Shown here: positions 10,380 to 50,910 of the stretch, piece after piece
Layout: each line of letters begins with the position of its first letter
Numbering within the stretch: the first letter of the stretch is position 1
Origin: Daucus carota subsp. sativus
Taxonomy: Eukaryota; Streptophyta; Magnoliopsida; Apiales; Apiaceae
Reading direction: 5' to 3'
NCBI RefSeq assembly: GCF_001625215.2
Contig: NC_030384.2
Location: 44,674,390 to 44,738,389, forward strand
Length of the DNA stretch: 64,000 nt
Notes under the pieces: generated by a model
Database searches by the model: none
What the model was told of the DNA's origin: nothing
Seen by the model: the letters and a program-made list of their open reading frames with translations, nothing else
Made by a program: the position numbers and the translations under genes

Positions 10380-11558
10380 ATGGGTGCCGGTGGAAATATG
10401 GCAGCTACTGAGGATTCCGATCGTCGCGTGAAGAGGGTCAGGGGAACTAACGTTCTGCCGCGAGCTCCTCATGAGAAGCCTAATTTCACATTGAGGGACT
10501 TGAAGAAGGCGATACCACCACACTGTTTCGAACGATCACTTCTGCACTCGTTGGCTTACCTTATTGTCGATTTTATGGCCAATTATGCCATGTACTTTGT
10601 GGCGTCGAATTATTTTCATCTTCTTCCTTATAAACTAGCCTATCTTGCCTGGCCTATTTATGGTTTCTGTCAAGGTTGTGTTATGTACGGCCTTTGGGTC
10701 ATTGGTCACGAATGTGGCCACCATGGCTTTAGCGACTATCAATGGGTTGACGACGCGATAGGTCTTTTCACCCATTCTCTCATCCTCTGTCCTTACTACT
10801 CTTTCAAAATCACCCACCGTCGCCACCACGCCAACACGTCGAACCTTGACCGTGAAGAGGCCTATGTGCCGCAAACAAAACCTGATCCGAATTCATGGTA
10901 CTGGGGAATTTACGGTACATCAGGTCGTATTGGCGTGCTACTCTTTAAAGTCACATTAGGCTGGCCTTCTTATCTTTTGTTCAACATGGCTGGAAGAGGT
11001 TACAACAAATTCGCCAACCATTTCTACCCCTACAGTCCCATGTATTCGGCTCGTGAGCGAATCGAAATCTTGATCTCGAATGCAGGGATTCTCGCAATGC
11101 TTTACGCGCTCTATCTTCTAACCGTCGCCAAAGGTCTTTCCCACACTCTTCTTGCCTACGGCATCCCTCTACTCGTTCACAACGCTTTCCTTGTGATTGT
11201 CACCTGCTTTCAACACACTCACCCTTCGTTGCCTCGCTACGATGCATCCGAATGGGACTGGTTCAGAGGAGCTCTCTCGACGGTGGACAGAGACTACGGA
11301 ATCCTCAACCATGTGTTTCATCATGTGACGGATAGTCATGTGGTCCACCATTTGCTTTCGACGATTCCTCACTATCATTCAATGGAGGCCACAGAGGCCA
11401 TCAAGCCGATACTGGGGGACTACTATCAGTATGATCCGACGCCGTGGTACAAAGCCATGTGGAGGGAGATCAGAGCATGTCTTTATGTGGTGCCTGATGA
11501 AGATGAAAAGAATAAAGGTGTGTATTGGTTCAGTAACAAGACCAAGTATGATGACTAG
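10380..11558 (+). CDS. divergent FAD2-family membrane desaturase-like enzyme (gene A)
   Basis: Single coding exon, 392 residues. It has the three histidine boxes of membrane di-iron desaturases: HECGHH at 110-115, HRRHH at 146-150 and HVVHH at 320-324. The usual hydrophobic pairs lie between them. FAD2-type enzymes sit in the ER and act on fatty acids bound to phosphatidylcholine, using cytochrome b5. This is the most divergent of the six. It has a longer N-terminus, NSWYWGIYGTSGR where the others have NNPxGR, SARER (Ala224) where the others have SDRER, and a C-terminus ending KTKYDD with no ER-retrieval-like aromatic motif. The start is chosen because MGAGG is the family start. It heads a same-strand run of three FAD2-family genes. 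Family membership is certain. The reaction (desaturase, acetylenase, conjugase or hydroxylase) is unknown. Confidence 0.93.
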   Translation: MGAGGNMAATEDSDRRVKRVRGTNVLPRAPHEKPNFTLRDLKKAIPPHCFERSLLHSLAYLIVDFMANYAMYFVASNYFHLLPYKLAYLAWPIYGFCQGCVMYGLWVIGHECGHHGFSDYQWVDDAIGLFTHSLILCPYYSFKITHRRHHANTSNLDREEAYVPQTKPDPNSWYWGIYGTSGRIGVLLFKVTLGWPSYLLFNMAGRGYNKFANHFYPYSPMYSARERIEILISNAGILAMLYALYLLTVAKGLSHTLLAYGIPLLVHNAFLVIVTCFQHTHPSLPRYDASEWDWFRGALSTVDRDYGILNHVFHHVTDSHVVHHLLSTIPHYHSMEATEAIKPILGDYYQYDPTPWYKAMWREIRACLYVVPDEDEKNKGVYWFSNKTKYDD

Positions 11559-14071
11559 TCTATCAGGATCAAATTACATTGAGGACCAAATTTCACAATT
11601 TTATCCAACTTGGTCTTGTAAAAGGAACATGGAAAATTAGATTACCCTTGGGTCTGTTTATCTTTGTGTAAACCATGAAGATGATGTACCAGCTGTATAT
11701 CAAATTAGAAATAATACTACTTCGTTTTATCTCATCAAGGAGGTTTCAGTTCTTTATGATTTGTTTATGAAATTTTGGTGAATTACTAATTCGACTTGGT
11801 TTTTATCATTTTTCTTTCATACTATAATAAGCAATCGTAGTTACTTGTCTGATAAAGCAAACTTTTAATAAATTAATATTCGATTTGTAAAAAAGGTTTT
11901 CAAACTTGTGGTTGAGCAAGCCAACTACCCATTCAACTTGAATTATTCCTGTTATGTGAAAATCGTGAAACATGAGGACCTGGATGTGCAGTGCATGATA
12001 ATAAGATGTATTAAGCTCCATGCCTCTGAAAAAGCAAAGTAAAAGAAAAACATAGTGAACCTGGCATACTGCTAAAGCTGATGTATATAAAGAAAAGACG
12101 ACACATGCAGGCAAATTAAACAGCAGCTGGAGCGGGACGCCCCCCTACTCGATCGGCTATTCAGCAGATAACTATTGTCTATTCATGCATCTTTTAACGT
12201 AATATGTTTGTTTCTTGCACCAAGTACGAATTTGACGATATGCTCGAGAATCTTGCAGCTAAAAACGATTGCATGTCGTTTTACCTTTTAATAGTAAATA
12301 TAAAAGATTATTTATGATTACATAAATTGTAAATTTTCTGGTAGCAAGTTACACTGACCTAAATATATCAGAAAAAATTAAAAATAATTGAGCAACCTAA
12401 AATAATCTTGCACTAATCTGAGTAAACATCAAACTACTTCACAGCAGCTCCTCATTCGGACAGATAGCAGCTGCTTCTTCGTTGCAACATGTCCCCTTCA
12501 TGACATCCATGTCTAATGCCGACACATATTTCTTTTTTGTATTGTTTTACATGAAATTATATATCGGTCCGATCAATGCCTAAATGCCACAATCGTCTTG
12601 TTTCCTATCTGTTCTTGGTATATATCAGAAACAGTTCAGCGGCGGAATTATAAAATCACTCTGGGATGTTACTCTTATTTTGCTAGCTACCTGATTAAAC
12701 AACACCTGTTTTGTTACCTATTGACAGATACTGGGTATATTCTCTTGATGCATTATGAATGTGACACTTACATACTATATATGCCGAAATTTGAATGGAT
12801 TAGGGGTTTTAACTTTACATGTGTTGTATTACATACAGTCTGCATGATCTTCATTCTTTTCACATTAATATACATCTGTTGCCGAAAATGGATGAGACCA
12901 TCCAGTTGTAATAGTGCAGCTAATGGACTCATTATTTTTCACAATACGCGTCACTTTTCCAGTCCCGTTGCCGATTGTACAGAACTGATGATGAACGACG
13001 TTTAAATTCATGCATAGAAAGTTAGAAACTAAGCATAGACACGATATTATAAGCTAATTTCTTTTCCTTCATTTTCGTTCGAGGAATGCTGTAGGGTTTC
13101 CAACCGAGTCTCATAAAATTTATCAAAAATAATGCGACGTCATAATGATTTTAATCACTTGTTGAAAAATGCTAAATATAATTATGGGATTCAATAAATA
13201 TTTTTATTTTTCCTTGAGTACCTTTGCATATCTCAAATTTTGTCTCAATTTTTTTGTCAAATAACATGAAAACAACTGTTTTTATTGGACGATTTAATTA
13301 GGAGGGTAGGTGGTCTTATTATTATTACTATTATTATTATTATTATTAATATGGATGAAACCAATAAAAAATAATTAACTAGAATTTTGAAAATAATTTT
13401 TCGAATATCAAGCATTGTCCGTTTCTTTTTGTCATTATTGAAATTATCAAATTTCCCATATTACTTAAACTGAACAATGAAATTTCCAAAAAGCAACACT
13501 GCTTTTCCTAGTGGCATAATATATAAGATATGTTTAGATTGTGACCACATTCATGAATCACAAGTTACTCCAGACTGGTTCTTACTTAGTTTATACTCAC
13601 AAATTAAGCACCAGAATCAGAAAAGAATATTATTTTCGGATGCCAACATTGGAATTAACGATCAAACAAAATCAATCAGCTAAAAAGATAAGAGAATTTA
13701 TTTTATCATATCTTAATCGAATGAAGATCTCGTATCTTAACTATTTAATTATATTTAGGTACCCCGAAACATATTAGGTCTTCAGTCTCATGCTTCCATG
13801 TGCAATAATGGAATTGTAGTGCCAGTCAGTACACTCATACAGTAGTCATACAGTATGGGTTTATTTGGTGAACTTGTACGCCAGTTTTGACCTACGAGAC
13901 TTGTGCTACTACCGAAAACAACACCACTATAATCCAAGGCGCCCGCCTTCAGTGACCCAATAAGGTAAACTAGTTGAGTTCGTAACATATTATTTTCTTA
14001 CCCCGAATATTCAAATTTATCGGCCAGGGTAACACAAATGCTTCACTTACGTGTAATTTATTAATTTTTGT
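11559..14071. other. intergenic between FAD2-family genes A and B
   Basis: Gene A 3' UTR, then AT-rich DNA with no recognisable gene. A second copy of the GGCGGGC heptamer, on the opposite strand (gcccgcc, 13941-13947), lies about 130 bp before the one next to the gene B TATA box. Confidence 0.5.
13316..13350. repeat. (TTA)n microsatellite
   Basis: A run of att/tta trinucleotides with one interruption, in the A-B intergenic region. Confidence 0.85.
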
Positions 14072-14097
14072 GGCGGGCGTAGTACAAGCTATATATA
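14072..14097 (+). promoter_or_regulatory. gene B core promoter: GGCGGGC motif and TATA box
   Basis: ggcgggc at 14072-14078 is followed 11 bp later by tatatata (14090-14097). The start codon is 101 bp further on and no UTR intron is evident. The heptamer is shared with genes A, C and E. Confidence 0.55.
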
Positions 14098-14197
14098 CTC
14101 TACTCCTTTGCTTCATTTTCTCATCCTTCCTTGCACTTAAAACTACAAACAACAAAGGAGGGAAACACAAGCTTCCCCTCATTTTTAAAAGAAAAAA

Positions 14198-15349
14198 ATG
14201 GGTGGTGGTGGACGAATGTCGGATCCCCCAAGCGGGAAGAAGACTGCAGCAGAAGCGCTTAAGCGAGCTCCTCATGAGAAGCCTCCATTCACTATTGGAG
14301 ACTTGAAGAAAGCCATCCCAGCTCATTGCTTCGAGAAGTCTCTGGTGACTTCTTTCCGATACCTGATTCAGGATCTCCTCATGGCCTATGCTCTTTACTA
14401 TGTGGCCACCAACTACATTGACCAGTATCTTCCCAGCCCTCTTAATTACGTGGCTTGGGCTGCTTATATTGCCGTTCAAGGCTGTGTCCTCACCGGGGCT
14501 TGGGTGGTTGGGCACGAGTGCGACCACGATGCTTTCAGTAACTACAACTGGATCAATGACCTTGTTGGCCTCGTTGTCCACTCTTCTCTTTTGGTTCCCT
14601 ATTTCTCCTGGAAAATTAGTCACCGTCGTCACCATGCAAACACTCAGTCCCTTGAAAATGACGAGGTTTATGTCCCCAGATTCAAGTCCAATATCCGTAA
14701 CTATTACAAGTTGCTTAACAACCCACCTGGCCGAGTCCTTGTGTGGCTCACCACACTCCTCATAGGCTTTCCATTGTACTTGATGTTCAATGTGTCCGGA
14801 CACAAATACGAGAGGTGGACTTCCCACTACGATCCTCACAGCCCACTCTACTCGGACCGTGAGCGCAAGGAAATCATTATCTCTGATATTGCCATTCTTG
14901 CTGTCATTTACGGACTATACCAACTCGTGTTGGCCAAGGGATTTGCATGGGTGTTCTGTGTATACGGAGGCCCATTGCTGGTTGTTAACGGCTGGTTTGT
15001 GCTGATCACCATATTGAACCACACTCACCCATCACTGCCATACTATGACTCCACCGAGTGGGACTGGTTGAGAGGAGCTCTTTGCACTGTGGACAGAGAT
15101 TACGGAATCCTGAACAAGGTGTTCCACAACGTATGCAATGCTCATGTCTGTCACCACATTTTCTCCATGATTCCCCATTATCACGGACTCGAAGCCACAG
15201 AAGCCATGAAGCCAATATTGGGAGAGTACTATCAGTATGATGGAACTCCGATCCTTAAAGCAATGTACAGAGAAATGAAGGAATGCATTTACGTGGAGAA
15301 GGATGAAGGGGAGACTAAGGGAGTCTACTGGTACAGAAACAAGTTTTAA
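14198..15349 (+). CDS. divergent FAD2-family enzyme with HECDHD first histidine box (gene B)
   Basis: Single coding exon, 383 residues. Histidine boxes are HECDH at 106-110 followed by Asp111 (canonical HECGHH), HRRHH at 142-146, and HVCHH at 316-320 preceded by CNA instead of TDT. The spaced His residues of box 1 (HxxxH) are kept, but Gly and the second adjacent His are both replaced by Asp. The remaining FAD2 signatures are intact ([35 protein letters not shown]). The C-terminus YRNKF fits the aromatic-x-x-K-hydrophobic ER-retrieval pattern of FAD2. The protein is the same as gene E except one residue (Asn381 here, Ser there), while their silent sites differ. It is therefore not a decaying copy. 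Probably an ER lipid-modifying enzyme; acetylenase or further-desaturase activity is a guess. Confidence 0.93.
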   Translation: MGGGGRMSDPPSGKKTAAEALKRAPHEKPPFTIGDLKKAIPAHCFEKSLVTSFRYLIQDLLMAYALYYVATNYIDQYLPSPLNYVAWAAYIAVQGCVLTGAWVVGHECDHDAFSNYNWINDLVGLVVHSSLLVPYFSWKISHRRHHANTQSLENDEVYVPRFKSNIRNYYKLLNNPPGRVLVWLTTLLIGFPLYLMFNVSGHKYERWTSHYDPHSPLYSDRERKEIIISDIAILAVIYGLYQLVLAKGFAWVFCVYGGPLLVVNGWFVLITILNHTHPSLPYYDSTEWDWLRGALCTVDRDYGILNKVFHNVCNAHVCHHIFSMIPHYHGLEATEAMKPILGEYYQYDGTPILKAMYREMKECIYVEKDEGETKGVYWYRNKF

Positions 15350-15776
15350 AGTAAACCAAGAGGCATAATAAATTGAATCTGCATTTAGTTACTTGGTTTG
15401 TAAGCCAATATAGACATCTTTGTTGTTTTCGTATGAAATAATTCGGCAGCACGTACTCGAGAACACTAAGGTTGTAGCTGTGAATATGATATCAATTGTA
15501 CGTGTTCCGATATATCTAATATAATCAGCACTGCATGGCTGCAGCCTGCAAAATGTTACCTTCTCTAATTGCGCAGTAACAAACTGATTGGCGTTCCGAA
15601 TATCGTTTTCCTGAAGCCGATTAAATCTATGTGCAGTGGTGCGCACACAAAATTAGATACAATTTATATAGAAAATTGACATGATAATTAATATAAACAA
15701 AATTATTATTTTATAATGGATAGAATATTATGTGAGCAACTCATCGAAATAATAATAAAAGTTGTAACAGAATGCT

Positions 15777-16325
15777 TAGGCCTGACAATTTAACACGTAA
15801 CACGCTAAAAAGAAACGACACGAAAAAAATGGATATGAGTTTTAATTTTTGATATACGAAACACGAAATTTACACACGATAGATTTCGTGTCGGATATGA
15901 GTTTTCATTTTGGGTACACGAAATACATGAAAGTACACGATATATTTGTACATAGATTTCATTATATATATGTTATAATATATTATACAAATAATTGTGT
16001 TAAATAAATATATATTTATATGTATATGTAGATATATATTATAGATACATTAACAAATTTGTAGATAATTGTATGCGAGCATAAATATATCATTCATATT
16101 TAGTAAAATCATACAGAAAAATATATATTAAAGCTATTTTTTGATTAAAGATATATTATATTTTTATATATAATGTACATCAAAAGTACACGGAAAATAC
16201 ACAAAACATTTCAGATCGGATACGAGTTTCAAATTAGATACACGAAATTGATAACGTGCGAATACAGATTTCACCTTGACTACACGAAATACGAAAATAC
16301 GCGAAACGAAACGATGCCACCACTA
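15777..16325. mobile_element. hAT-like non-autonomous element rich in ACACGAAA words
   Basis: The ends are taggcctgaca and, at the right, atgccaccacta (complement tagtggtggcat). Flanking 8-mers agaatgct (15769-15776) and tgaatgct (16326-16333) match at 7 of 8 bases, fitting a hAT 8-bp target duplication. The termini hold repeated aacacgaaa/cacgaaatac words pointing inward; the centre is AT-rich. No transposase. Confidence 0.65.
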
Positions 16326-17675
16326 TGAATGCTGTATGCATGTTAGGAACTTTTTCTTAGATGCGGAGGGTTCAACACGGTAGTTGAATTTGAACTGAGA
16401 CTCTTCCTAACTAATTTTATGTTAAAGTACCGGAATTCGAAATGTTTTTAAATCAATTTTCCTTATCATGTTAAATAATCTACTATGAAAAATTCATCTA
16501 AATTTTTTAAAGTTTTAGGACATTAGAAAAAATTGGAAAAAAGAAATGATATTGTGACTTTAATTTTCTCGTTTGTGCAAGCATGTCTTATGTGTTTTCA
16601 ATGTCGTAAACTTGAGTCTAGACGGTCATTTAGACTTTATGTCCAGGTGATAACAGGTTTTAAAATATTCCAATTTAGTCCATACCCGATAATGTAAGAA
16701 AAATGATCAAAATCAGATTAAAATTGGCTTAACACAATCTAAGCGGTCAATAAAAAAAGAAAATATACGAAGTAACAAATAAATTGTTAGCCATTTTAAT
16801 AATTAAATAGATAATAAAACAATATTCACTTCTGGGTATCTCAATCTTGTACAAATAAATATTATATTAGTATGAACTTGCTTATTCAGTTTTTCTTTTA
16901 TTACATACACCAAATATTTATTTAAAATTTTATTTTATATTATTCATTACTTAGAAACTTTATTAATAAAAAGAATAGACATGATAATTTAATTATCAAA
17001 ATTTATTATTTTTAAAATTAAAATTATATAATTCATTTTTCAATTAATTTTAATTTATTAATAACCCACTTGAAAGTACTCATACGGTGGGCTGCGTACT
17101 GCCTAGCATGTTTAGAACATTGTTTCTGCCGCGATCAAAAATAAAGAAACTCATTGATTAAAATAAGTACTGATCAAAACATGTACAGTGAATGAAGTTG
17201 TAAAACTCCTGTGGTCTCAAATTAGTAAATTAGTAGTCATTTTAATTTTCTGATTCATATTCTAAGATGGGAAACAAATATAATTTAATTTAATATTTCT
17301 CTTAATAAAAAATATAAATAATAAATTTTACTAATAAACTTATTCACGGTATCTTCTCTTTTATGTATATTTATGAGACACATACAAAAATTATAGTAAC
17401 TACTAATTTCGAAAGCAGTTATAATATTAATGAAAGAAAATTTAAAGAATTTTCAACTAATTTACAAAAATTATCAAATTATTATAACGAATTTTCTAGT
17501 ATGTGATCGTAGACAAACACTAACAACGATTTTTCAATTAGATGTCTCCCATTTATAATTGTTGGTCCCTCGGTGCACAAAATTCTACGCCAATCAAAAC
17601 ATTTCATCTAAATAAAAAGTGGTGGTTGTTAGTTTAGAAAGATCCTGTATACCCTTATTATAATACTTCCTCCGT

Positions 17676-17914
17676 CCCGCAATACATGTCTCTTTTGGAA
17701 AAAAATTTGTTCTATAATATTTGTCCACTTTTGATTTTTAATGCAAAAATATTGATATTATTCCAAAATTACCACTCTTGAAAGTTGTATAACAATTAAT
17801 AAAAATCTACATTTATGCATTTATTATAAGAACATGTGAGAAATTTTTATCTAATTAATATTTTTTTAATATGCATAATTTTTTTAAAAGGAGACATGTA
17901 TTATGGGAAGGATG
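17676..17914. mobile_element. degenerate Stowaway-type MITE
   Basis: The left end reads cttcctccgtcccgcaatac and the right end gtattatgggaaggatg, with TA on both sides. The sub-terminal atgtctc/gagacat words are also inverted. The terminal repeats are more worn than in the other Stowaway copies of the window. Confidence 0.7.
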
Positions 17915-19598
17915 TACGGTACATTTATGAATCTTTTGAGACCCGTTATCAGCTTTTCGTTATAAAATTCGTGTCTTATTTTGAATGTTCTGAGCGCCAG
18001 GTAGCGGGTTAAACGTGCTCATTTTGAATCAAGCCATTGGCTAATATTAGCACAACGACGACAACAGACTGTCAAAAATTGTTAAAAGGATAGCACGCCA
18101 ATATAGAACAGTTACTAGTCTCCCCCTTGAATGTATTGTAATTAGTGGAAAATTTCTGTTTATTGCTCTTAAGTAACTCTATACACTTCGAAAGAGTCGA
18201 CAATTTTACGTAAAGATATTATTAACCTACACCTTACTTCTTGACCTTTATGTCGACTTAATTAACAGAGTATCCGAAATCAAGTATTGTAATGGAGGTA
18301 TGTTTTTTTTACAGAATAATGGAGGTATGTTATTACACTTAAACATTGAAGTTAAGCATTATTAATCTAGTGGTGTTAGAATTAAACAACAGCCAACCAA
18401 ATCTATCGTGTAATATTATTAATTATTATTATACCTCCCTCGGTGAAGACTGTGTGTGTGGCCTAACGTAAGACTAGCCGACGACCAGTGTCTGTCTGCA
18501 CAGCAAAACGAGTTCGTAGTGTATGGAGTCGAGGAAACGTGTTTCACTACTTCGGTGAGGAGCACAACTTACTGCACATCTGAATCTAAGCGGGAAAGAA
18601 CTGATACTTTCGGTTTTACTGTTAGAAATGGCTAGCTAGTTCGACCTACAACTAAATCCCCATATACGTCTAAAAAGAAAAAAGTACTGCCTAGATAACA
18701 AATTTTGATCGATTTTTATTTCGGTTACATGTTGAAATAATTCGACATACAATACATTGCTGTAAGTGTCACTCGCATAATACTAAATACATGACTCGAT
18801 AAATAATCTCAACTAATATTTTACATTCAATCTCCGTAATTCTTTTATGGACACACATCAAGTCCACAGCTTCTTCCTCAAAAATATGGTGAATAATTTC
18901 TTTGAGCTTCAATCCAACATTCATGTAAATCAACCAAAATAATACCATGCATTTCATTAAATTAAAAAAATGTTGAAAAAACAAAAATTTGGTAAATCTT
19001 CGACTCGTATCATTAGCTAGATAGATTAAGCAAATTATAAAGAACTGGTTTATTGGCATCCTATAGGGGGGGAGGGGGTAGATCATCAGCACCTAATCAC
19101 TTGATTAGCAGCACATGGAAGCAACCGGCCAAAGATTTTATGATGAGATTATATGGATTTGCGAAGGAATCGAATCACAACGACTGCATCATTATCATAT
19201 AAAGCAAAGGATTGGGTGTTGTCCTTGTATAAGAGTCGCGTAAGGAGACTAGAGCTTTAAGTGTCACTTAAACAAGTGTCGCTAATGAGAACTAAAGTGT
19301 CGCTTATGTACTTGTTAAATATCGACAGACTGTCGTCGGTCACATTCGTAACAGCCTAATTAGTAGACGAAGTGCGATACACTTCGATGAATGCATATTT
19401 TAATCATTCGTCGTCACTCATCAGCTGTACTTATTTGACAAAAATTAATCTAGGAACTCGGAATCAAATTGAGTGAGAAGTTGAATCGCAAAAAACGAAG
19501 TTTGTGAAAAACTAAACAGAGCTAATTAGACACGTACAAGTTAAAGTGAGAAAATAGCAAGGACAAGGAAAAACAAAAGGGGATTAAAACTAGTGCAT

Positions 19599-19904: not shown

Positions 19905-19915
19905 CTCGTTAAACA

Positions 19916-22732: not shown

Positions 22733-22740
22733 GTGTATAT

Positions 22741-32349: not shown

Positions 32350-33445
32350 CTCTACTAAATCTAACTGGTGGGCGTTCTGAGACACGGAGACTTTACCTTG
32401 CGAAATCAGATTCTGATGGTATCTTTCGACTTTTTCATTGAGTTTGTAATAAAGGCAACAACCCATCAGTTCTATGGGAATCATCTCCTGACAAATGTGA
32501 CCCAAAAGGTTTATGTGGCCTCAATGGATACTGTACTCTAGATGATAATGAAGTCAAATGTCTGTGTTTAACCGGATTCAGTTATGTTAGTCCTGGCGAC
32601 GGGACTGCAGGATGTGAGAAGAATAATACTGGTAACAGTTGCAAGAACAAGGAGCAGCGAATCCAATATAGCAGGAGAGCAGTGGCGAATACTTGGTGGG
32701 AATATGATCCTTATTGTGTTCTTAAATTGGACATTAAAGATGAGTGTGAAGCAGCTTGTTTGGACTGTAATTGTGAAGCAGCCTTTTTTAAAGACAGCCG
32801 GGGAGTGCAAAAAACAAAGGCATCCATTAAGATATGGTAGAAGATCACTGTTGGAAACTAACATTGCCTACATCAAGTGGACCTCGCCAGAACTCGATAG
32901 AGAAGCTCCAACTGATCTCAAGACTAAAACAAAGAAAGAGCCCTGCAGAGAGATTCTTAACATCGGTGTTTCAGTTATTGCCTTGGCTTTTACAGTCTTT
33001 ATGATTTCTGGATTTATTGTGTACAGAAATCATGCATGCGCAGGGAAAAGGAATCTAGTCAATGAAAATTTTGAATTTCTTGAAGATATTGCTCCGTGGT
33101 CATTTATTTGTGCAGAATTAGAGAAAGTGAATGGTTTTCAAGAAGAAATTGGAAGAGCATCATCTAGAACAGTTTATAAAGGGATATTAAACTTTAAAAA
33201 ATCAAGCATTAGTTGTGAAGAGACTGGACAATATGTTAGCAGAAGGGGATAGAGAGTTACAGAATGAGATGAAAGTCATAGGAAGAACCCATCACTGCAA
33301 CCTTGTCAGGCTTCTCAAATATAGTGTTGATGGACCTCATAAGCTTCTGGTACTAATAGTCTTCTACTGCTTGATGTCTCATAATTATTGGGAAGGATAT
33401 GTTTCTGTCATTTGTCTTAATTTGAAGCTTCAAGCAAATATTTGA
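32350..33445 (+). pseudogene. G-type lectin S-receptor-like Ser/Thr kinase, broken fragment
   Basis: In reading order I can see: the end of the lectin half (LNLTGGRSETRRLYLAKSD); an EGF-like/PAN cysteine region (CDPKGLCGLNGYC, GCEKNN, ECEAACLDCNCEAAFF); a transmembrane segment (ISVIALAFTVFMISGFIVY-like, near 32960-33030); and the start of a kinase domain (ELEKVNGFQEEIGRASSRTVYKG, then VKRLDN and MKVIGRTHHCNLVRLL). In-frame stops occur (for example TGA after RLFH near 32435), frames shift at least twice, and the kinase stops before the catalytic loop. The ATP-binding glycine loop has lost glycines (GRASSRTVY where GxGxxG is usual). The bulb-lectin domain proper is missing upstream. It is a decayed receptor kinase of the LECRK/RLK1 type and not functional as a kinase. 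Confidence 0.85.
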
Positions 33446-34477: not shown

Positions 34478-35800
34478 TCAATCAATATCAAGCAAAGCTA
34501 GAGTTTCCACAAAAGGACAAATAAGAAAAGGTGATTTAGAGCCCTCGTTAAGATAGTAAAACTGAGTCAAACGATCACATGATTCAACGAAATCATATGG
34601 TTCATGAGTATCAAGATCATATGAAATTAGATTGTTTGATTTTGCTAGTATTGGTGCACCATTGTTCCTCGTACCCAATACCTCAGCCGAAATATTTTCA
34701 CTTAGCTTAACACTCATCTTGTTCTTCCAGGCATCCTCATATGTCCTCATCTTGTTCTCCCAAAAATCCTCATTTATACTCTCGTCATTCAATACCCTCC
34801 TCTCGTCATTCAATACCCAAATATCCAAATGAGAAGTGCCAAAATCATCATACTCATAATCGTCATCATCCCAATCATCCACATCTCCCTCAACAAAGTA
34901 AGCAATAGATTGACCGAACGGAAGGATAACAGGATTCTCAAGCTGGCGGGTATGACGTGCCATCCTGTTAGGCACCGAAATCTGTCCCAGTACATTTGTC
35001 TTTGTATCAAAGTACATAACTACCTGCTGTACCAGATCATAATTATACCCTACCCAAAATGCAGTACCATTAACAAATTCCGACGCATCAGTACTTATAG
35101 AATCAACAAAAACATTATCTTGGCATATTTCCTTCCAAGAATTAGTGTTTAGACTATAAACACCAATCTTGACCGAGTGCGGGTAATGTGCATAAGGGGG
35201 GGTATCATAAGGATTAAAAGCGTAATAGTCAGCGTCAGGTGAGTCAGGTTCAGCGGTTGAACTAGGTTTCACAACATGTACCACAACATAATCATTAACT
35301 TCCGGTAAAAACCCAAAAGCTAAAGCATTCCACCTAATCTCCTTATACGAAAACCTCGGAAGTGGTGAACCCGGGATAATCCCAAATTTGCTAACAAGGG
35401 GATTCCAGAGATAAATGTCGGGATTATAACCAAGTTCTTCATTAAACATAGTAGACACACAAAATAAACCATTTGCTTGTCCAGACCAGGCTTCACTAGG
35501 CAATTCAAATGGATAGTGAAATGTGCAATATTTCCGACATTGTGAATCATCAGAACGTACTGTGTATAAATTGTTAATAGTATCATTATAAAGCAAATAC
35601 TTAGGATTAATGTCGGCAGTAAGTATTTGATGATTGGAGTGAAGAGAAATAAACGTAGGAGTTTTAATGAGAGAATACCATGATTTTTGCACAGCTCCGC
35701 AACGTAAGACATCTTTAACAGGAAGTCTTTTGAATATTTCGGACAAGATTTCTTCGCAGAAGTCATAGGAGGGCTTGTACTTGTGTTTTGAGAAGCTCAT
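34478..35800 (-). CDS. F-box protein with F-box-associated (FBA) type C-terminal region
   Basis: Single exon, 440 residues. Residues about 14-55 are an F-box (ILSEIFKRLPVKDVLRCGAV, then KSWYSLIKTPTFISLH). The remainder has the look of the FBA_1/kelch-like interaction domain: GLFCVS, LWNPLVSKFGIIPGSPLP, GFLPEVNDYVVVHVV, VGVYSLNTNSWKEI and DLDTHEPYDFVESC. An acidic loop (DVDDWDDDDYEYDDFG) sits at about 315-330. Such proteins are substrate adaptors of SCF (SKP1-CUL1-F-box) ubiquitin ligases; the substrate is unknown. The start MSFSKHKYKP is the first ATG of the open frame and precedes the F-box by a normal distance. It lies next to RH35 in the same orientation. The family is large and fast-evolving, so no orthologue is named. 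Confidence 0.85.
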   Translation of the reverse strand: MSFSKHKYKPSYDFCEEILSEIFKRLPVKDVLRCGAVQKSWYSLIKTPTFISLHSNHQILTADINPKYLLYNDTINNLYTVRSDDSQCRKYCTFHYPFELPSEAWSGQANGLFCVSTMFNEELGYNPDIYLWNPLVSKFGIIPGSPLPRFSYKEIRWNALAFGFLPEVNDYVVVHVVKPSSTAEPDSPDADYYAFNPYDTPPYAHYPHSVKIGVYSLNTNSWKEICQDNVFVDSISTDASEFVNGTAFWVGYNYDLVQQVVMYFDTKTNVLGQISVPNRMARHTRQLENPVILPFGQSIAYFVEGDVDDWDDDDYEYDDFGTSHLDIWVLNDERRVLNDESINEDFWENKMRTYEDAWKNKMSVKLSENISAEVLGTRNNGAPILAKSNNLISYDLDTHEPYDFVESCDRLTQFYYLNEGSKSPFLICPFVETLALLDID

Positions 35801-36941: not shown

Positions 36942-39774
<2,833 letters not shown>

Positions 39775-41450: not shown

Positions 41451-41760
41451 CGATTTAGAAACAGTGCTCCGATTATTTATTTTTCGTGTCTCATCCCAAG
41501 CAAAATTTGTTGATAAGCTCTCTTTAAGTGAGTATACATATACTTTACAAATACATAATCTCACATTAGAACTTACAAGAAATAAATTCAGATGAATTAT
41601 GAGCTAAAACTGCATACATAGCAAGGCTTTTCATAGTAAACCATTTACTCCAAACTGTTGCCTCACACTTGGTGTTTATTCATTTTTGTCATATCAAATT
41701 GCATCATATCAGCTGTCCGCATACCAGGATTTATCTGCTCATTATCATTAAAGACACCAC

Positions 41761-42927
41761 TTAACTCTCAAGCTTATTTTGGAACCAGTAGACTCCTCTG
41801 GCCTTATCACCATCCTCTGCCTCGACATAGAGACATTCCTTAGCCTCTCTCCACATTGCCACGTAAAACGGAGTGGGATCGTAATGATAGTAATCCCCCA
41901 ACACGGGCTTGATCGCCTCAGTTGCCTCCTCAGCATGATAATGTGGGATGCTGGAGATCAAATGGTGAAGCACATGAGTATCAGCTATGTGGTGGAACAC
42001 TTTGTTCAGAATTCCGTAGTCTCTGTCGACTGTGGCCAGAGCTCCTCTCAGCCAGTCCCACTCGGAAGAATCATAATGAGGTAGAGAAAGATGAGTGTGG
42101 TGCAGAAGAGTAATCATCACCAAGAATCCATTGACAACATGTAGAGGAGCTCCGTAGACAAGCATCACCCATGTGAAGCCTTTTACTAAAGCAACCTTGT
42201 ACACCAAATAGCATCCGGCAAGGAAACCAATATCTGATAACAAGATTTGAACTCTCTCACGATCGGAGTAGATGGGACTGTATGGGTCAAAATGGGAAGC
42301 ATGTCGATCGTATGTTCGTCCGGCTATGTTTACGATCAAGTACAAAGGCCATCCTAAGGTGAGGGTGAATGCAATGATAAAAACTCGGCCTACTGGATTG
42401 TTGAAGTAACGGTAATAAGGTCGGATAGTCTGTTTAAATCGAGGAACATGGTTCTCATCGCGATCAAGAGAATTAGTGTTGGCATGGTGACGACGGTGAC
42501 TAATTTTCCAAGAAAAGTAAGGGACGAGGAGGAGAGAATGAAGAACAAATCCAACAGTGTCGTTGAGCCAGTGATAGTCGCTGAAGCCATGGTGGCCGCA
42601 TTCATGGGCAACGACCCATACAGCAAACATGAAACAACCTTGAACATAAACATAAGCCGCCCATACAACGTAAGATAAAGGTTCCGGGAGGAGGTTAATG
42701 TAGTTTGTGGCTGCATAGGAGAGGAGGAAACAAACAGTTAAATCATAAATGAGGTAGGATGATGATCTAAGAAGCGAGCGCTCGAAACAATGGGCTGGAA
42801 TGGCCTTCTTGATGTCTGCAAGCGTGAATGGTGGCTTTTCATGGGGAACTCGTCGGAGTACATTGTCTTTCTCTTCTCCTCCCTTTGGCTCACCGTTCGA
42901 TTCTGGCATTCGACCACCTTTGCCCAT
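41761..42927 (-). CDS. divergent FAD2-family enzyme, acetylenase-like (gene D, partner of C)
   Basis: Single coding exon, 388 residues. Boxes are HECGHH at 108-113, HRRHH at 144-148 and HVLHH at 318-322, as in gene C. From NNPxGRVF (about residue 176) to near the end, C and D differ at only a few residues. Before that they differ at many (for example SLLRSSSYLIYDLTVCFLLS against SLIRSFAYLVYDLAVCFLLY). The tail is WFQNKL plus ES, so an intact FQNKL ER-retrieval-like motif is followed by two extra residues. No 5'UTR intron is evident. A TATA box (ctatatac type) lies about 85 bp before the ATG (43009-43015). I see no GGCGGGC heptamer here. Probably ER-located; reaction unknown, with an acetylenase-like step the best guess. 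Confidence 0.93.
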   Translation of the reverse strand: MGKGGRMPESNGEPKGGEEKDNVLRRVPHEKPPFTLADIKKAIPAHCFERSLLRSSSYLIYDLTVCFLLSYAATNYINLLPEPLSYVVWAAYVYVQGCFMFAVWVVAHECGHHGFSDYHWLNDTVGFVLHSLLLVPYFSWKISHRRHHANTNSLDRDENHVPRFKQTIRPYYRYFNNPVGRVFIIAFTLTLGWPLYLIVNIAGRTYDRHASHFDPYSPIYSDRERVQILLSDIGFLAGCYLVYKVALVKGFTWVMLVYGAPLHVVNGFLVMITLLHHTHLSLPHYDSSEWDWLRGALATVDRDYGILNKVFHHIADTHVLHHLISSIPHYHAEEATEAIKPVLGDYYHYDPTPFYVAMWREAKECLYVEAEDGDKARGVYWFQNKLES

Positions 42928-44418
42928 TGTCTAATTAGAGTTCGCAAATGTGACCAAAACTTCAAAAGAGAATATAACTGGACTAGCTTGATCAGGCTAC
43001 ATTTCGTGTATATAAGAACATAAATTATGCGCATCTACATGTTTTTAAATCTCAGATACTTTTGGAGATGTTAATGGGACAAACTAAAGAAGACAGAAAA
43101 ATTCAATATGCCATCATAGTATTCATCAATCATGGACAAACAAAATCTCAAAACATAGTATGGACAAGTAGTAGAATATATATTAATATAATACTTAGAC
43201 TCACGCTTAGGTGAGGACATCTCTCGTGTGGAAATAGTTGTGCTGTAGTTTATAGTCTGGGGAACAAGAACAATTTCCGCAAAAGACGTGGGACAACTAT
43301 AACACAACAAGAACGAATTAGTTTATACATGAAAATTTCAGCACAGGTGGATCATAGGAAGTTATCGACAAAGACTCAGATTATTAGTCTTTCATCTATT
43401 CACAATCCACAGATAACATTGAGAAGTAAGGTATATACTGGGATCTGTGGTTGAAATATGTGTTTAAGTGTTTCTACTGCTCTGTTTTATTCGGCCGAAG
43501 TCATCGAAAACGTTAGACTAGGGTGCATGCGGCCACCGTCTTGATTGAAGCTTGGATTTGTCGATTTAACCGTATATATGTCTCGTCCATACATAACTAG
43601 ACTACGTTTATTCCTAGTTTATCAAGTAATATTCTCCGCCTGTGTTGCCTGGAAGTGAAAAGGTTAGTGCAGAAGGCGAGAAGGGTACAGAATCATTTTT
43701 ATTATTATACATGTAAAACCTGCTTAAAGACATGTGATTATGTGATCCAGATAAAAGATTCGGGTATATACTTCTCATATTAGGTTAAAGATCTGCATTA
43801 GGTTTTTAAATTTATCTCCTTGTACATGCAAATAGAACCAGCATATAATGTTTAACATGCTAATGAAACTGGCAATTGATTAATGATAGGAGAGATGATT
43901 AAGGCTCAGTTCTGTCGAAACACAAGTAGAGGGCATCTAATCATCTCGTGAGACTTATCCCTAACATCCTCATTATACGATGCAGGGTCTCATAGATCTT
44001 GATCTTATGAGAGAGACAAAATGTTTGATCCCAAACACATAACACAGAAACGGAATCCTAGTTTAAGTGACGATAGCTTGATTACAAAGTTTTGGTTAAC
44101 AAGATGAATTTTGATGTTTGTGACTTTGTGTTCACTACGAAAGTATTCAATTCATTACTGATTTGGAACTATAGACAGTGTAACTTAAATCAAATAAGCA
44201 AATATACATTCGAAGATGAGAGTTTTATTAATCATGATTAACGGAGTCTAACCGCCAATATAATCTCATACAAGCGGCTCAGATGTTAATCTGGCAGTTC
44301 AAAGGATACAAACCAATGATATTAATTGATTTGTATCTTAAAAACAGATACATGATACATCAAAAACTACTTGAATGATCATGAAGCACAGTCTATATCT
44401 TCTGTTTCAGTCATCGCT
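42928..44418. other. intergenic between FAD2-family genes D and E
   Basis: It holds the gene D promoter and 5' UTR (TATA at about 43009-43015 on the minus strand) and the gene E 3' flank. No other gene. Its sequence does not align by eye with the B-C interval. Confidence 0.5.
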
Positions 44419-45570
44419 TCAGAACTTGCTTCTGTACCAGTAGACTCCCTTAGTCTCGCCTTCATCTTTCTCCACGTAAATGCATTCCTTCATTTCCCTG
44501 TACATTGCTTTAAGGATCGGAGTTCCATCATACTGATAGTACTCTCCCAAAATCGGCTTCATTGCTTCTGTGGCTTCCAGTCCGTGATAATGGGGAATCA
44601 TGGAGAAAATGTGGTGACAGACATGAGCATTGCATACGTTGTGGAACACCTTGTTCAGGATTCCGTAATCTCTGTCCACGGTGCAAAGAGCTCCTCTCAA
44701 CCAGTCCCACTCGGTGGAGTCATAGTATGGCAGTGATGGGTGAGTGTGGTTCAATATGGTGATGAGCACGAACCAGCCATTAACAACGAGCAATGGGCCT
44801 CCATAGACACAGAACACCCATGCAAATCCCTTGGCCAACACGAGTTGGTATAGTCCGTAAATAACAGCGAGAATAGCAATATCAGAGATAATGATTTCCT
44901 TGCGCTCACGGTCCGAGTAGAGTGGGCTGTGAGGATCGTAGTGGGAAGTCCACCTCTCGTATTTGTGTCCGGACACATTGAACATCAAGTACAATGGAAA
45001 ACCAATGAGAAGTGTGGTGAGCCACACAAGGACTCGGCCAGGTGGGTTGTTAAGCAACTTGTAATAGTTACGGATATTGGACTTGAATCTGGGGACATAA
45101 ACCTCGTCATTTTCAAGGGACTGAGTGTTTGCATGGTGACGACGGTGACTAATTTTCCAGGAGAAGTATGGAACCAAAAGAGAAGAGTGGACAACGAGGC
45201 CAACAAGGTCATTGATCCAGTTGTAATTACTGAAAGCATCGTGGTCGCACTCGTGCCCAACGACCCAAGCGCCGGTGAGGACACAGCCTTGAACGGCAAT
45301 GTAAGCAGCCCAAGCCACGTAATTAAGAGGGCTGGGAAGATACTGGTCAATGTAGTTGGTGGCCACATAGTAAAGAGCGTAGGCCATGAGGAGATCCTGA
45401 ATAAGGTAGCGGAAAGAGGTGACCAGAGACTTCTCGAAGCAATGAGCTGGGATTGCTTTCTTCAAGTCTCCAATTGTGAATGGAGGCTTCTCATGTGGAG
45501 CGCGCTTCAGCGCTTCTGCTGCAGTCTTCTTCCCGCTTGGGGGATCCGACATTCGTCCACCACCACCCAT
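44419..45570 (-). CDS. divergent FAD2-family enzyme with HECDHD first histidine box (gene E, partner of B)
   Basis: Single coding exon, 383 residues, identical to gene B except Ser381 for Asn381 (C-terminus YRSKF). It carries the same HECDHD box 1 (106-111), HRRHH (142-146) and CNAHVCHH box 3. In the first 265 bases of the two reading frames I count about 11 differences, all silent. So this is an older duplicate held constant by selection or by conversion of coding sequence, and not a recent assembly or array copy. UTRs and 3' flanks are unlike those of B. The C-terminal motif fits FAD2-style ER retrieval. Function is as for gene B: an FAD2-type lipid-modifying enzyme with unknown specificity. 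Confidence 0.93.
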   Translation of the reverse strand: MGGGGRMSDPPSGKKTAAEALKRAPHEKPPFTIGDLKKAIPAHCFEKSLVTSFRYLIQDLLMAYALYYVATNYIDQYLPSPLNYVAWAAYIAVQGCVLTGAWVVGHECDHDAFSNYNWINDLVGLVVHSSLLVPYFSWKISHRRHHANTQSLENDEVYVPRFKSNIRNYYKLLNNPPGRVLVWLTTLLIGFPLYLMFNVSGHKYERWTSHYDPHSPLYSDRERKEIIISDIAILAVIYGLYQLVLAKGFAWVFCVYGGPLLVVNGWFVLITILNHTHPSLPYYDSTEWDWLRGALCTVDRDYGILNKVFHNVCNAHVCHHIFSMIPHYHGLEATEAMKPILGEYYQYDGTPILKAMYREMKECIYVEKDEGETKGVYWYRSKF

Positions 45571-45662
45571 TTTTTAAGTAGTAATCTAGGTATCTTTCTC
45601 CTCCCCTTAACTCTGCTACTTAGTGTTGGTTCTTATTATACTTTGGCTTCCCTGGAGCTGAG

Positions 45663-45769
45663 TATATATAGGAATAAATAAGCAGGGTAAAAACTAACAA
45701 GTATCTAAGCTAGTAGTAAAACAAACTGAGTAGGATACTATGATGTCACTGATACATGAAGCGCCCGCC
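45663..45769 (-). promoter_or_regulatory. gene E promoter: TATA box and GGCGGGC motif
   Basis: On the minus strand a TATA box (tatatata, 45670-45663) lies about 95 bp before the ATG. ggcgggc (gcccgcc on the plus strand, 45763-45769) is about 93 bp further upstream. The TATA context ctatatatactc is the same as in gene B although the rest of the two upstream regions differs. Confidence 0.5.
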
Positions 45770-47284
45770 TCTCGCGTGTAAATATTGACTTTACTGATTA
45801 ATGTTTGTGTTGTTTGAAACGATTCCAAGTCCTTAAGGACTGCTGCTACATTTCTCCCGGTCCAGATAGGCAGGCGCAGAGGTTTGCTACGTTTTCTAAG
45901 ATCCAGAATTCAGAGGTTTGTTTGTTTTGGTCTCTAGTAATACCATTGTTTTAAACCATCGTTGTCGGTTTCTTCCAAGATTGTCTTTTTCTTGCTGTCC
46001 CCGATGATTTTAAGGTGGGGGAATAAAGATATATTCCATGGACTAGGAGGCCGAAATATCCTATTACAATGCACAATATTACACTGAGGTGCCTATATTT
46101 GTTTGGTTAGAAAATATTTCAGCATGATGTTAACGTGTATGTTCAACCTTCAGGTTGAAATGTTTCTTAAGTTTATCGCTTATCGACAAATGAATTTAAC
46201 CTCTATACTCGCTTATGTTGTAGATATCGGATTACAGGCATATTCCATTGTTTTCACTGTGCCAATCTTCTTCTTCCTAAAAAACATACCGATGAATATT
46301 AGAATATCAGATACTGAAATACCGAATTTTAATTAGCATAATCTTATTTAAAAAATGTTAACTATTCAAAAAGTATTCTCAAACCTAGTTGCACACAGTA
46401 ATAATGAGATTTCTCTTATTCAAATAAATCATCCAATTAAATTTAATCGTCTTTCTATCACCTTATTTAAAAAGAAAATTATAGAATATATAATATTATT
46501 CTTTTTTTATTGTGGGCTAAGTTAGAAAAATTAGAGAATCTGTGGTCGGGATATGGTCAAAACAATCCCACTTGAGGTCTTGAAGGCTCAGTCCATAACA
46601 AGTGCACACACAACACAGTCCAAAGTCATTATAAATTACAAATTCGTATCACGTGCAAGTTCTATTTTATACGAGTAGTCATAATAAACTACTCACAAGT
46701 GCGTGCTGTGGCGTGCTTATGTTTAAATAATTCTTTCATTTTACATTTTAAATTCTTTTATCTCGCACAAAATAATTGGACAACCAATATTTTAATATCT
46801 TATAAATTGTAAAGCAAAGATTGAAATCAGTGGTCGATACTGAAGCAACTAAGCGAGTGATAAGCCGCCTATAATGACCAGAAACTTGTGTATGCAGCCA
46901 TTCATCATGAGTCATGAGGGTCAAGTGTTAAGAACTTGAGATGTAACATTCTGCTTGTGTCAAAAACGGCATGCTCAACATTATATTAGCTCAACGTGGA
47001 GGGGCCGAAAGTAAAACAAAGTTATAAGATTTATATAGCCTGCCAAAGTTGAGTCACTTCCGACTCAATAAAATATTTCAAAGATAAAAGTGATTCTTTA
47101 AATCTGAAATTAAATGAGTAATATCAAACAATTATAATAATAATAATAATAAAATAATAATTAATATTGTGTGTCAGCATTCTCATTATATCATTAAATT
47201 AAATTTTATTAAGAAACTGATTATAGATATTAAATAAATTTAATACTATGGGTATCTACATGCGGTATCTTCTAAAAATAAACT
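45770..47284. other. intergenic between divergent genes E and F
   Basis: AT-rich DNA with a short (aat)n run near 47140. No gene seen. Confidence 0.5.
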
Positions 47285-47475
47285 CCCGAAGGGAGCAGAA
47301 TTTGTGATTATACCTCCTTGATTAGAGCCTGTCACGCTTAAGTGCGGTTTACCTTGGTTCACGTAGTTTGCAGGCTATTGCGTGAGTTCGTGAGTTTACC
47401 GGTGCGCACCCGAAAGATAGCGGTGGCGGGTTCCTACGTTATAAAAAAAAGGAAAAAAAAAGAAGAAAAGACTTC
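47285..47475 (+). mobile_element. 5'-truncated SINE
   Basis: The segment gattagagcctgtcacgctt, continuing with gcggtttaccttggttcacg and gtgcgcacccgaaag and ending in an A-rich tail (aaaaaaaagg...), has the form of the 3' half of a widespread plant SINE type as I remember it. The tRNA-like A and B boxes expected at the 5' end are not visible. Target duplications were not established. Confidence 0.5.
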
Positions 47476-47959
47476 TGACTATACCCATGTTCCGCGTAGA
47501 AAACGAGCTATTTATAAATAAACATAATGCAGATTAAAATATAATTTTTATGTCTCAAAATAATGTTATTTTGTTTTTCTATATTTTGAGATAAAAAAAA
47601 TATTTCTATACTTTAGTTTCTTATAAAATTTTAATATTTTTTTATTTTAAAAAATAATATAAAAATATAATTTTCATCTCAAATTTTATGGAAAAAAATA
47701 AAACGACATTAATTTAGGTACCATGATTATAAGCGGGCAGTAAATGATGGGCTGCAACGCAACGCCCGTGGAAGAGAGAAAAAAAAAAACAGGTCCACAA
47801 TTTTGTACTACGTGCTTAAAAAATCGTCAAATGGGCGGCCCCACAGATCGGCACGTATACCGAGGATGACAGAAGTGTTTAAACTTAAATACACCTCAAC
47901 CCATCTCAAATATCAGTTGCAAAGGCCAGCAGTTTTTCAAGACTCTGCATTCTATCTCT

Positions 47960-49749
47960 TTCCGCCCAGAGAGATTGAGAGAGAGAGAGAGCCCAACCTC
48001 TTCTTTTATCTTCTCTTCTGCCAAGGTACCTTCTGAGTTTCTTTATCTCTCTGTATGCATATGTCAGATCTAGGTGTGTACATCACGGGTTTTTCTTAGC
48101 TTTAGATTATTGTGCAACTGTGTATGCGATTTTATCTGTTTTATCTATAGAGCTTGGGTCTTTTTTCTCATTAAGGGTTTCTGATTGAAGGTAATGGCTT
48201 GTTTGATGCGGGTTCATTCTCTATTTGATGTTTCTGACTAATTCTACATTTTTTATATGTGTTGGAAAGGTTTTTGGTTTAATTCTTATTTGTGTATAAT
48301 TTTTCTTGTACATTATGTGTTTGTGGCAACAAGATTGAATGTTTATCGGATTGAATTCAATGTGAAAGATGTGAGTTTGATTTTGTTAACTTGTTTTGTC
48401 AGTGTTCAGAGAGGGAGGGAGGGAGAGTCGGAGAGAGAGAGGGATGGAGGGAGGGAGAGGGGGGAGAGAGAGAGAGAGATTTTGGAAACAATCTCAGAGA
48501 GAGTCCTCACTGGTTTTTATCATCACATAATCACATCTCAGATCCTCAATTAGTCTTTAAGATCATATATTAGGGGCATATATAGTATTAATAAGGTTGT
48601 TTAGTGAGATAGGACCGGGAGCAATATTGTCATGTAATCATGTTAGACAATGAAAGAAGGAACTCACCGGCCCTCCTTCATATACGCTACACACCAGAGG
48701 ACTGGTGGGGACTCCCCACTAAATTCTTAAAGTGCACTACTGGAGTAATAAATTTGTATAAATTGTCTATTCATGTCCTGTGTCGAAGTCCATCTGATAA
48801 CAACTTGTGATAAATGATTGACATAGGCCTAGATTTTGCTGAAGTTATAAACTTTTTTCGTGAATATTTGAACTTAATACATTTTAGCTTGAAGAAAACT
48901 TTGTGTAGGTTGATCCCATTTCATTTTGCTATTTTTCTCATGGATCTTTAAAAAAAAAAAATTCCTAGTTATGGTTCTTCCGGGTTAAATTTTGCTCAAA
49001 TTACTTTTTTAGCCTGAACCTGTAATATTTGATGATTTTTTGCATTTGTTTATCTTTATTTTCTCCCCTCTTTTCGCTAAGCCTCTGCCCAGATACACTC
49101 AATATGACCATTCCGAATAGTAAAATTGTCATACTGCCAAAAAGTTCTGAACAATGTAACAGAAATGTAAAGACTGTATATATCGATGTTGTACGATTGT
49201 CTTTATGTTTTGTTTTAAATGATTACTTGTTTTTCCTTCTTCATGCTTCATTTTTTGCTGTAAAAATAGGATCTCTATTGCATGAGAAACATGTCATCAG
49301 TTCTAATTCTAATTAGAAGTCAACATGTAATTTTCGTAAATAGTTGTGAATGCCTGTCAATGTCCTCACTCAAAAGTCAAAATTACTGTCTACCATGCCT
49401 TGTTAGTTTTGGGCTGTATTTTAGGAGTAAACAAACCTCTCATGCGAACTACATGTGCTATGCCATGGTCTTCTGCAATTCTTGCTCAATACTGACCTTT
49501 GGGTGTATAATCAGTGCTTATGACTATCCTTGCCAGTCAGTGATAAAGTTGCTAAATGCCATTACTTTCTTGTTCAGTTCACTGATGATTTTTCATCACA
49601 TAAAAAAACTTCTACTGCTGGTTTTTCTTTTAATATGTGCTTGAAACAGAGACATTGTGAGACTGTAAGATGTTTTCCTATGTTCTTGAGTGTTCTTGAA
49701 TTAACAATTATCATTTAGTTGTGCTAACCATTACACTATGTTCTTCCAG
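47960..49749 (+). other. 5'UTR exon and 1.7 kb leader intron of FAD2 (gene F)
   Basis: A CT- and GA-rich leader exon (about 47960-48025, containing gagagagagagag) ends at aag/gtacct. The intron runs from 48026 to an acceptor ttcttccag at 49749, 12 bases before the ATG. A single long intron in the 5' UTR is a known trait of constitutive FAD2 genes and often enhances expression. A dense GA/GGGA microsatellite (about 48408-48480) lies within it. The other FAD2-family genes here lack a long leader intron. Confidence 0.8.
48408..48480. repeat. GA-rich microsatellite in the FAD2 leader intron
   Basis: Runs of gagaga and gggagg units. GAGA tracts are binding sites for plant BPC/GAGA-binding factors, so a regulatory role is possible but not shown. 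Confidence 0.8.
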
Positions 49750-49761
49750 GACTATTGAAAG

Positions 49762-50910
49762 ATGGGTGCAGGTGGACGGATGCCAGTTGACCCCCAGGGA
49801 AAGAAATCGGAAGAAGTTCTCCAACGAGTTCCTGTCTCAAAGCCTCCATTTACAGTTGGGGATATTAAGAAAGCCATACCACCACATTGCTTCAAGCGTT
49901 CTGTCCTTCGCTCTTTCTCATATGTTGTGTATGACCTTGCCATTGCATCCGTCCTCTACTATGTTGCCACCAACTATATCCAACTCCTTCCCCACCCTCT
50001 TGCTTACATAGCCTGGCCTATATATGGTTATGTTCAGGGCTGTTTCTTAACCGGTATTTGGGTCATTGCCCATGAATGTGGCCATCATGCCTTTAGTGAT
50101 TACCAATGGCTTGATGACACAGTTGGCCTTGTCCTCCACTCCTCCCTTCTTGTCCCTTACTTTTCCTGGAAGTATAGTCATCGCCGCCACCACTCCAACA
50201 CTGGTTCCCTCGAGCGTGATGAGGTGTTTGTACCCAAACCCAAATCTGAGCTCCAATCTTTTGCCAAGTACATTAACAACCCACCTGGCCGTGTCCTCAC
50301 ACTTCTTGTTACCCTCACACTAGGTTGGCCCCTATACCTGTTATTCAATGTTTCTGGTAGGCACTATGAGAGATTTGCATGTCATTATGATCCCAAGAGC
50401 CCCATTTACTCAGACCGTGAACGTCTTCAGATCCTAGTTTCTGATGCTGGTGTACTTGCTGTGAGTTACGGATTATACCGCCTAGTAGTAGCAAAAGGTC
50501 TTGCTTGGGTACTTTGTGTTTATGGAGGTCCTTTACTAGTTGTGAATGGATTTCTTGTGCTTATCACGTTTTTGCAGCACACTCACCCTGCATTGCCACA
50601 TTACAACTCATCGGAATGGGATTGGTTGAGAGGAGCTCTAGCCACAGTTGACAGAGATTATGGAATTCTGAATAAGGTGCTCCATAACATCACTGATACT
50701 CATGTAGCTCACCATCTGTTCTCGACAATGCCACATTACAATGCCATGGAGGCCACAAAAGCGATCAAACCGATATTGGGTGATTATTACAGGTTTGATG
50801 ACACCCCAGTTTTTAAGGCGATGTGGAGGGAGGCGAAGGAGTGCTTATATGTTGAACCTGATGAGGGTGACCAGGGCAAAGGTGTCTTCTGGTACAACAA
50901 TAAGCTCTAG
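49762..50910 (+). CDS. FAD2: microsomal oleate Δ12-desaturase FAD2 (gene F)
   Basis: Single coding exon, 382 residues, the normal FAD2 length. All canonical signatures are present: MGAGGRM start, [16 protein letters not shown] (box 1 at 104-109), [19 protein letters not shown] (box 2 at 140-144) and [17 protein letters not shown] (box 3 at 314-318). The C-terminus is YNNKL, the known ER-retrieval motif of FAD2. The enzyme converts oleate to linoleate on phosphatidylcholine in the ER with electrons from cytochrome b5. It is the only member of the cluster with unmodified Δ12-desaturase boxes and with the long leader intron typical of housekeeping FAD2. A polyadenylation signal aataaa is at 51040. 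It would supply the linoleate that divergent members may use. Confidence 0.96.

Follow-up and report, generated by a model that had tools for sequence, protein, structure and literature searches.

Mirrored FAD2-type genes in a carrot polyacetylene-type cluster share homology only within their coding exons

How can two pairs of genes stand in mirrored order, one pair nearly identical in its coding sequence (CDS), and yet share almost nothing in the DNA around them? The question is raised by a 64-kb stretch of the carrot genome (Daucus carota subsp. sativus, contig NC_030384.2, positions 44,674,390 to 44,738,389; here called the window, C4:44.67-44.74 Mb), which carries six FAD2-type genes, A to F, within 40.5 kb (C4:44.68-44.73 Mb). 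A preliminary description of this DNA had proposed a six-member FAD2 cluster, and all six open reading frames (ORFs) are indeed found where it placed them, intact, single-exon and 382-392 aa long. Each of the six proteins gives a Pfam FA_desaturase match above cut-off, and the combination of this domain with three His boxes in a single coding exon of ~380 aa, present in 6/6 genes, assigns them to the plant FAD2 family. The mirrored order that it described, with B and C on the plus strand and D and E on the minus strand around a 20-kb central block, is also present. The assembly searched comprises 441 Mb in 11 contigs, carrot having nine chromosomes, and yields 50 FA_desaturase matches, eight of them on contig C4: genes A-F and two more at 26.03-26.04 Mb. 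We think it probable that the locus is the known carrot chromosome 4 cluster, and that an old mirrored duplication in it later had its coding exons homogenised by gene conversion.

The layout had been read as a plain inverted duplication of a block, and this part of the preliminary description is not supported: homology ends at the coding exon, and the flanks of D and E are unlike those of C and B. The inverted repeat arms measure 1190 and 1165 nt, essentially the CDS, and the copies are separated by 21 and 29 kb. In nucleotide sequence B and E are 96.7% identical, with 37 synonymous and 1 nonsynonymous differences (38/1149 coding positions; synonymous divergence, dS, 0.165), and their proteins differ at 1 residue of 383; their homology starts 5 nt upstream of the ATG and ends 2 nt after the stop codon (33 nt after it in another comparison). 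C and D, 88.5% identical, match from 7 nt upstream of the ATG to a point 30 nt short of the stop codon of C. An inverted segmental duplication should show homology through genes and spacers alike, and only CDS matches are seen. With the CDS masked, the best match between 11559-24000 and 38700-49761 is 23 nt long (E value 0.01). It is found downstream of both C and D, at mirrored positions (21674-21696 and 41113-41091), and the C/D downstream flank score is equalled by 5/200 shuffles; together these are at most the trace of an old shared flank. A similarity between the B and E promoters was considered and rejected: both have CTATATATACTC ~100 nt upstream, but they are no more alike than shuffled sequence. 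Elsewhere in the genome, two C-type FAD2 genes (L023:4206-5577 and L024:4052-5418, at C3:53.855 and 53.861 Mb; dS 0.21) form a second inverted pair, again a lopsided duplicate: its homology begins ~200 nt upstream of the ATG and ceases at the stop codon.

The C/D pair is itself a mosaic. Over codons 173-377 (C numbering) the proportion of differing synonymous sites (pS) is 23.0/138.0 = 0.167 with 6.0 nonsynonymous differences, against 66.2/121.0 = 0.548 and 38.8 outside that tract, a step that none of 300 permutations equals. Control pairs have no comparable step (28/300 permutations for C/C', 149/300 for D/C' and 150/300 for a C3 gene against C, primes denoting the contig C5 homologues described below), and C and D are sisters in the C-terminal tree (97/97), the N-terminal tree being without resolution. 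Compared with C', D is a little closer in its 3' part than in its 5' part, but this D/C' step is not significant (149/300). B/E, with a pS of 37/250 = 0.148, comes near the value of the C/D tract. Its dS is the lowest of the pairs compared, yet its 600-nt flanks are equalled by 29/200 shuffles upstream and 154/200 downstream. By comparison, 7/8 further FAD2 pairs whose dS does not exceed 0.42 have one or both 600-nt flanks above all 200 shuffles; the remaining pair gives 4/200 upstream and 194/200 downstream. Of the B/E changes, 8 can be assigned to B and 12 to E; the other 18 are ambiguous.

A collinear block on contig C5 serves as a within-genome outgroup and suggests which copies are ancestral. 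On the minus strand of C5:10.458-10.494 Mb, an ENT-domain homologue (ENT', 10.4939-10.4932 Mb, its reading frame interrupted by introns or decay) is followed by A', B' and C' in the ENT-A-B-C order and orientation of the window. The pairs are old (dS 0.86 for A/A', 1.24 for B/B' and 1.05 for C/C'), and both flanks of all three still beat all 200 shuffles. By contrast, shuffles do as well for E against B' in 9/200 cases upstream and 13/200 downstream, and for D against C' in 12/200 and 138/200. From these comparisons B and C look ancestral and D and E derived, because B and C share both flanks with C5, and E/B' and D/C' share neither. The C5 block differs from the window in having no D or E and no F-type gene among the matches there, and in an A'-C' span of about 23 kb against about 11 kb for A-C on C4. 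At C5:47.08 Mb a C-type gene precedes an F-type gene on the same strand, which suggests an older order A-B-C-F.

The locus is very probably one already described. In its passages on the cluster, PMC8889737 reports six FAD2 genes (DcFAD2-7, -8, -16, -17, -19 and -22) on carrot chromosome 4 at 29.3-29.4 Mb of another assembly; gene number, chromosome and family agree with ours, contig C4 being equated with chromosome 4 by its number. Both descriptions have six FAD2 genes within about 0.1 Mb and acetylenases together with a desaturase, and they differ in position (29.3 Mb there, 44.68-44.73 Mb here). According to the same passages, DcFAD2-7 and -8 are tested Δ12-acetylenases and DcFAD2-19 is a bifunctional Δ12/Δ14 desaturase (enzymology credited to Busta et al. 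[2018]), the cluster lies inside the intervals of the quantitative trait loci (QTL) FaOH_4.1 and FaDOH_4.1 for falcarinol and falcarindiol, and 5/6 of its genes are apparently co-expressed in the periderm of one line, transcripts of -16 and -22 being barely detected; enzyme activities, expression and QTL are thus taken from others' reports. Provided that the two loci are the same, the cluster and its polyacetylene role are already in print, and the role guessed at in the preliminary description was correct. The new detail is that the mirrored copies match only inside coding regions, as if one copy overwrote the other. PMC8889737 speaks of local tandem duplications, whereas we find mirrored pairs; the word "inverted" is absent from its main text, and its cluster passages mention neither mirrored pairs nor CDS-limited homology. 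A literature search on gene conversion in carrot FAD2 genes found none, within a scope that did not extend to Busta 2018 or Feng 2019 and so leaves unpublished status unproven.

Individual names can be proposed with less firmness. The third tested acetylenase, DcFAD2-6, lies on chromosome 5 according to the parts of PMC8889737 drawn on here, and C5 has a single B-type gene, B', which is consistent with that placement. B is probably DcFAD2-7 or -8, and B', B and E may together be the acetylenases DcFAD2-6, -7 and -8. Four numbers separate the acetylenase locus tags DCAR_013548 and DCAR_013552; this spacing would suit E and B if three annotated genes lie in between. The falcarindiol cluster of tomato (Jeon et al. 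2020, as cited in PMC8889737) likewise groups FAD2-type desaturase and acetylenase genes of the polyacetylene pathway; it includes a CER1-type gene, whereas no CER1-like match occurs in the 64-kb carrot window and the closest one on C4 lies at 35.02 Mb, >9 Mb off.

Residue marks separate the six genes further. In the sections of PMC3554562 on the safflower FAD2 family, acetylenases are marked by a Gly directly preceding the first His box and by (D/N)VX(H/N) at positions -5 to -2 of the third, and Δ12-desaturases by Ala before box 1, HECGHH, HRRHH and LFSTM. We scored these marks on the 38 FAD2-like genes in our tree and checked a 39th, outside it, for the acetylenase motif. Gly precedes box 1 in A, B and E and not in C, D (both Ala) or F, and the (D/N)VX(H/N) motif is present in B and E (as NVCN) and missing from A, C, D and F. 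The third box canonical for Δ12-desaturases is HVAHH. F carries all the canonical marks checked (Ala, HECGHH, HRRHH and HVAHH, then LFSTM), as the preliminary description had it, and A-E do not. The motif occurs in 14/38 tree genes, exactly the 14 rows of the B clade, and is missing from the 39th gene; the clade is as large as acetylenase clade I of PMC8889737, whose total there sums to 14 (10 known and 4 new). A pairs with A' in the tree. Gly alone is a weak mark and not specific to acetylenases, because all 11/11 members of a separate clade also have it.

By these published marks, B and E are predicted acetylenases and F a predicted canonical desaturase, and A, C and D appear to fit neither type; C, D or A could perform another pathway step, such as Δ14 desaturation. 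Acetylenase marks are not general among the divergent members: B and E have both, C and D neither (Ala, no motif), and A has Gly only. The safflower family resembles that of carrot in being large and in having an acetylenase with both marks, and differs in His-box details; the passages describing it mention no physical cluster (PMC3554562). The separate divergent clade just mentioned has 11 genes (L014-L017 at C5:44.5 Mb, L025-L029, L031 and L035), is partly clustered on C5, and has HHRHH as its second box in 9/11 members. The 39th FAD2-like gene (L036, C7:5.15 Mb) has HRHHH in that place and had escaped the His-box filter by which the tree genes were chosen.

The following history would account for these observations. 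An ancestral array ENT-A-B-C on one strand would have left a second copy on C5, and D and E would be later mirrored copies of C and B across the 20-kb block, and their flanks would since have come to differ from those around C and B. Within each inverted pair, conversion may then have homogenised coding sequence, namely the whole B/E coding exon and the 3' half of C/D; with the inverted copies similar only in their coding exons, it would have been limited to those exons. In the pathway, F would convert oleate to linoleate, and B and E would be two copies of one Δ12-acetylenase acting on linoleate to give crepenynate. One of A, C, D and F would be the published bifunctional Δ12/Δ14 desaturase, taking crepenynate toward falcarinol and falcarindiol. 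The two acetylenase copies would thereby stay nearly one protein, each with its own flanks and promoter.

Several points weigh against this account. B/E has no internal step (41/300 permutations as good), and the case for its conversion comes from the contrast between CDS and flanks, unlike that for C/D. Fast turnover of flanks is a real alternative, because 4/9 of the next pairs just above the cut-off (dS 0.43-0.50, C/D left aside) have neither flank above 30 shuffles, and the control pairs, having genes in common, are not independent. The account requires a minimum of two conversion tracts, because the unconverted 5' half of D sits between E and the 3' half of D. The age of C/D outside its tract (pS 0.548) is close to that of C/C' as a whole (0.565). 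Conversion is read from one assembly, either member of B/E and of C/D may have been the donor, and the original inverted duplication is something that we infer. As for identity with the published cluster, gene names were assigned by inference rather than by a sequence match, and A has Gly yet falls outside the B clade, an imperfect match to the rule in PMC8889737 of Gly in clade I and Ala in clade II, as far as its clade passages give it.

The rival that survives best, although we consider it unlikely, is that the B-C block was recently duplicated as a plain inverted segment, with transposons and indels then replacing its noncoding parts. The mirrored order and orientation and the very similar B/E CDS would follow directly from it, high-copy repeats do lie beside B (15777-16311) and in the central block, and several older FAD2 pairs are without both flanks. 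The CDS-masked comparison disfavors it: such replacement would have had to reach within 5 nt or less of the B/E start codon and 2 nt of the stop codon (33 nt in the other comparison) and leave the arms with nothing better than the 23-nt match. The D-E spacer finds no match but itself in a genome search, one that skips very common words, and is therefore not a repeat insertion. B keeps both B' flanks at a far greater dS (1.24), the central-block helicase keeps alignable surroundings at dS 0.365, and the C/D mosaic is left unexplained. Distinctly improbable is the view that E, and D with it, arose as CDS-only copies by retroposition or transposon capture and took up new promoters at the landing site. 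Homology confined to the CDS, the single coding exon and the unlike flanks agree with this, but a retrocopy at dS 0.165 should have brought the 3' untranslated region (UTR) and tail of its parent, and no such homology is found (downstream, the 154/200 given above); cuts almost exactly at the start and stop codons, in adjacent copies in mirrored order, are unlikely, and the mosaic in D needs conversion anyway. Strong selection or codon bias on synonymous sites would fit the tight constraint on B-type proteins (ratio of nonsynonymous to synonymous divergence about 0.01-0.04) but is very hard to credit, with B diverging freely from the tested C8, C6 and C1 genes (dS 1.25-1.88) and C/C' at a pS of about 0.4-0.7 over the stretch where C/D is at 0.167.

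TABLE 1 Features of the window, with positions counted from its first nucleotide
Feature	Position	Strand	Remarks
FAD2-like A, 392 aa	10380..11558	+	Gly before box 1; without acetylenase motif (HVTDS-HVVHH)
FAD2-like B, 383 aa	14198..15349	+	both acetylenase marks: G-HECDHD, NVCN-A-HVCHH
FAD2-like C, 391 aa	19916..21091	+	A-HECGHH, HIADT-HVLHH
FAD2-like D, 388 aa	41761..42927	-	mosaic partner of C
FAD2-like E, 383 aa	44419..45570	-	CDS-only homology to B and B'
Canonical FAD2 F, 382 aa	49762..50910	+	FA_desaturase, His boxes
D-E spacer	42928..44418	-	only self-match in genome search
Upstream element of B	13988..14148	+	76% to B' on C5; not found at E
3' flank of B	15394..15514	+	76% to B' on C5; not found at E
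F-box gene, central block	34478..35800	-	large family; best other copies (85%) at C4:48.23 Mb
DEAD-box helicase (RH35-like), central block	36942..38642	-	DEAD and Helicase_C domains
Broken receptor-kinase remnant (S-locus-glycoprotein type), separate frames	~32442..33445	+	from domain search
ENT-domain gene	456..1235	+	best homologue at C5:10.493 Mb beside A', 64%

The remaining features of the window are listed with the cluster genes in Table 1. Domain searches agree with the F-box gene, helicase and dead receptor kinase first described in the central block; in the last, an S-locus glycoprotein domain reaches cut-off level, and kinase matches fall below it. The helicase, presumably RH35 as first named, has a near-identical copy (98% aa; L039, C8:18.185 Mb; dS 0.365), and sequence beyond its ORF is still alignable with that copy, although part of it may be a further exon. 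We had considered this gene as a member of the C5 block and rejected it, its close copy sitting on C8. A repeat of ~390 nt at 24939-25325 and 29003-29357 in the central block also lies beside the C8 copy (L039:6404-6803); being high-copy genome-wide, it is probably common to both surroundings by chance. Another high-copy repeat, of ~535 nt (15777-16311), begins ~430 nt downstream of B and occurs also beside the C3 FAD2 pair. A VQ gene at 56792-57334 has no match on C5. Finally, 55235-55546 and 55693-56004 are identical 312-nt copies, in opposite orientation and 146 nt apart, of a high-copy element of about 309-312 nt with ~44-nt inverted ends that resembles a miniature inverted-repeat transposable element; it is probably young, because copies at C4:37.06 and C1:53.13 Mb are 100% identical over 309 nt.

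Falcarinol-type polyacetylenes influence how bitter carrots taste and how they defend themselves, and major QTL intervals for these compounds include the published cluster. For work on these genes, expression values of B and E are confusable unless primers sit in their unlike UTRs, because so few coding positions differ, and a single knock-out of either gene may be masked by its twin. We further hypothesize, tentatively and with less confidence than we place in the history set out above, that recurrent conversion confined to exons holds the two acetylenases to one protein while their promoters evolve freely. If this is true, the cluster could vary the place and time of acetylenase production with the enzyme unchanged, and mirrored FAD2 pairs would be a device for doing so.

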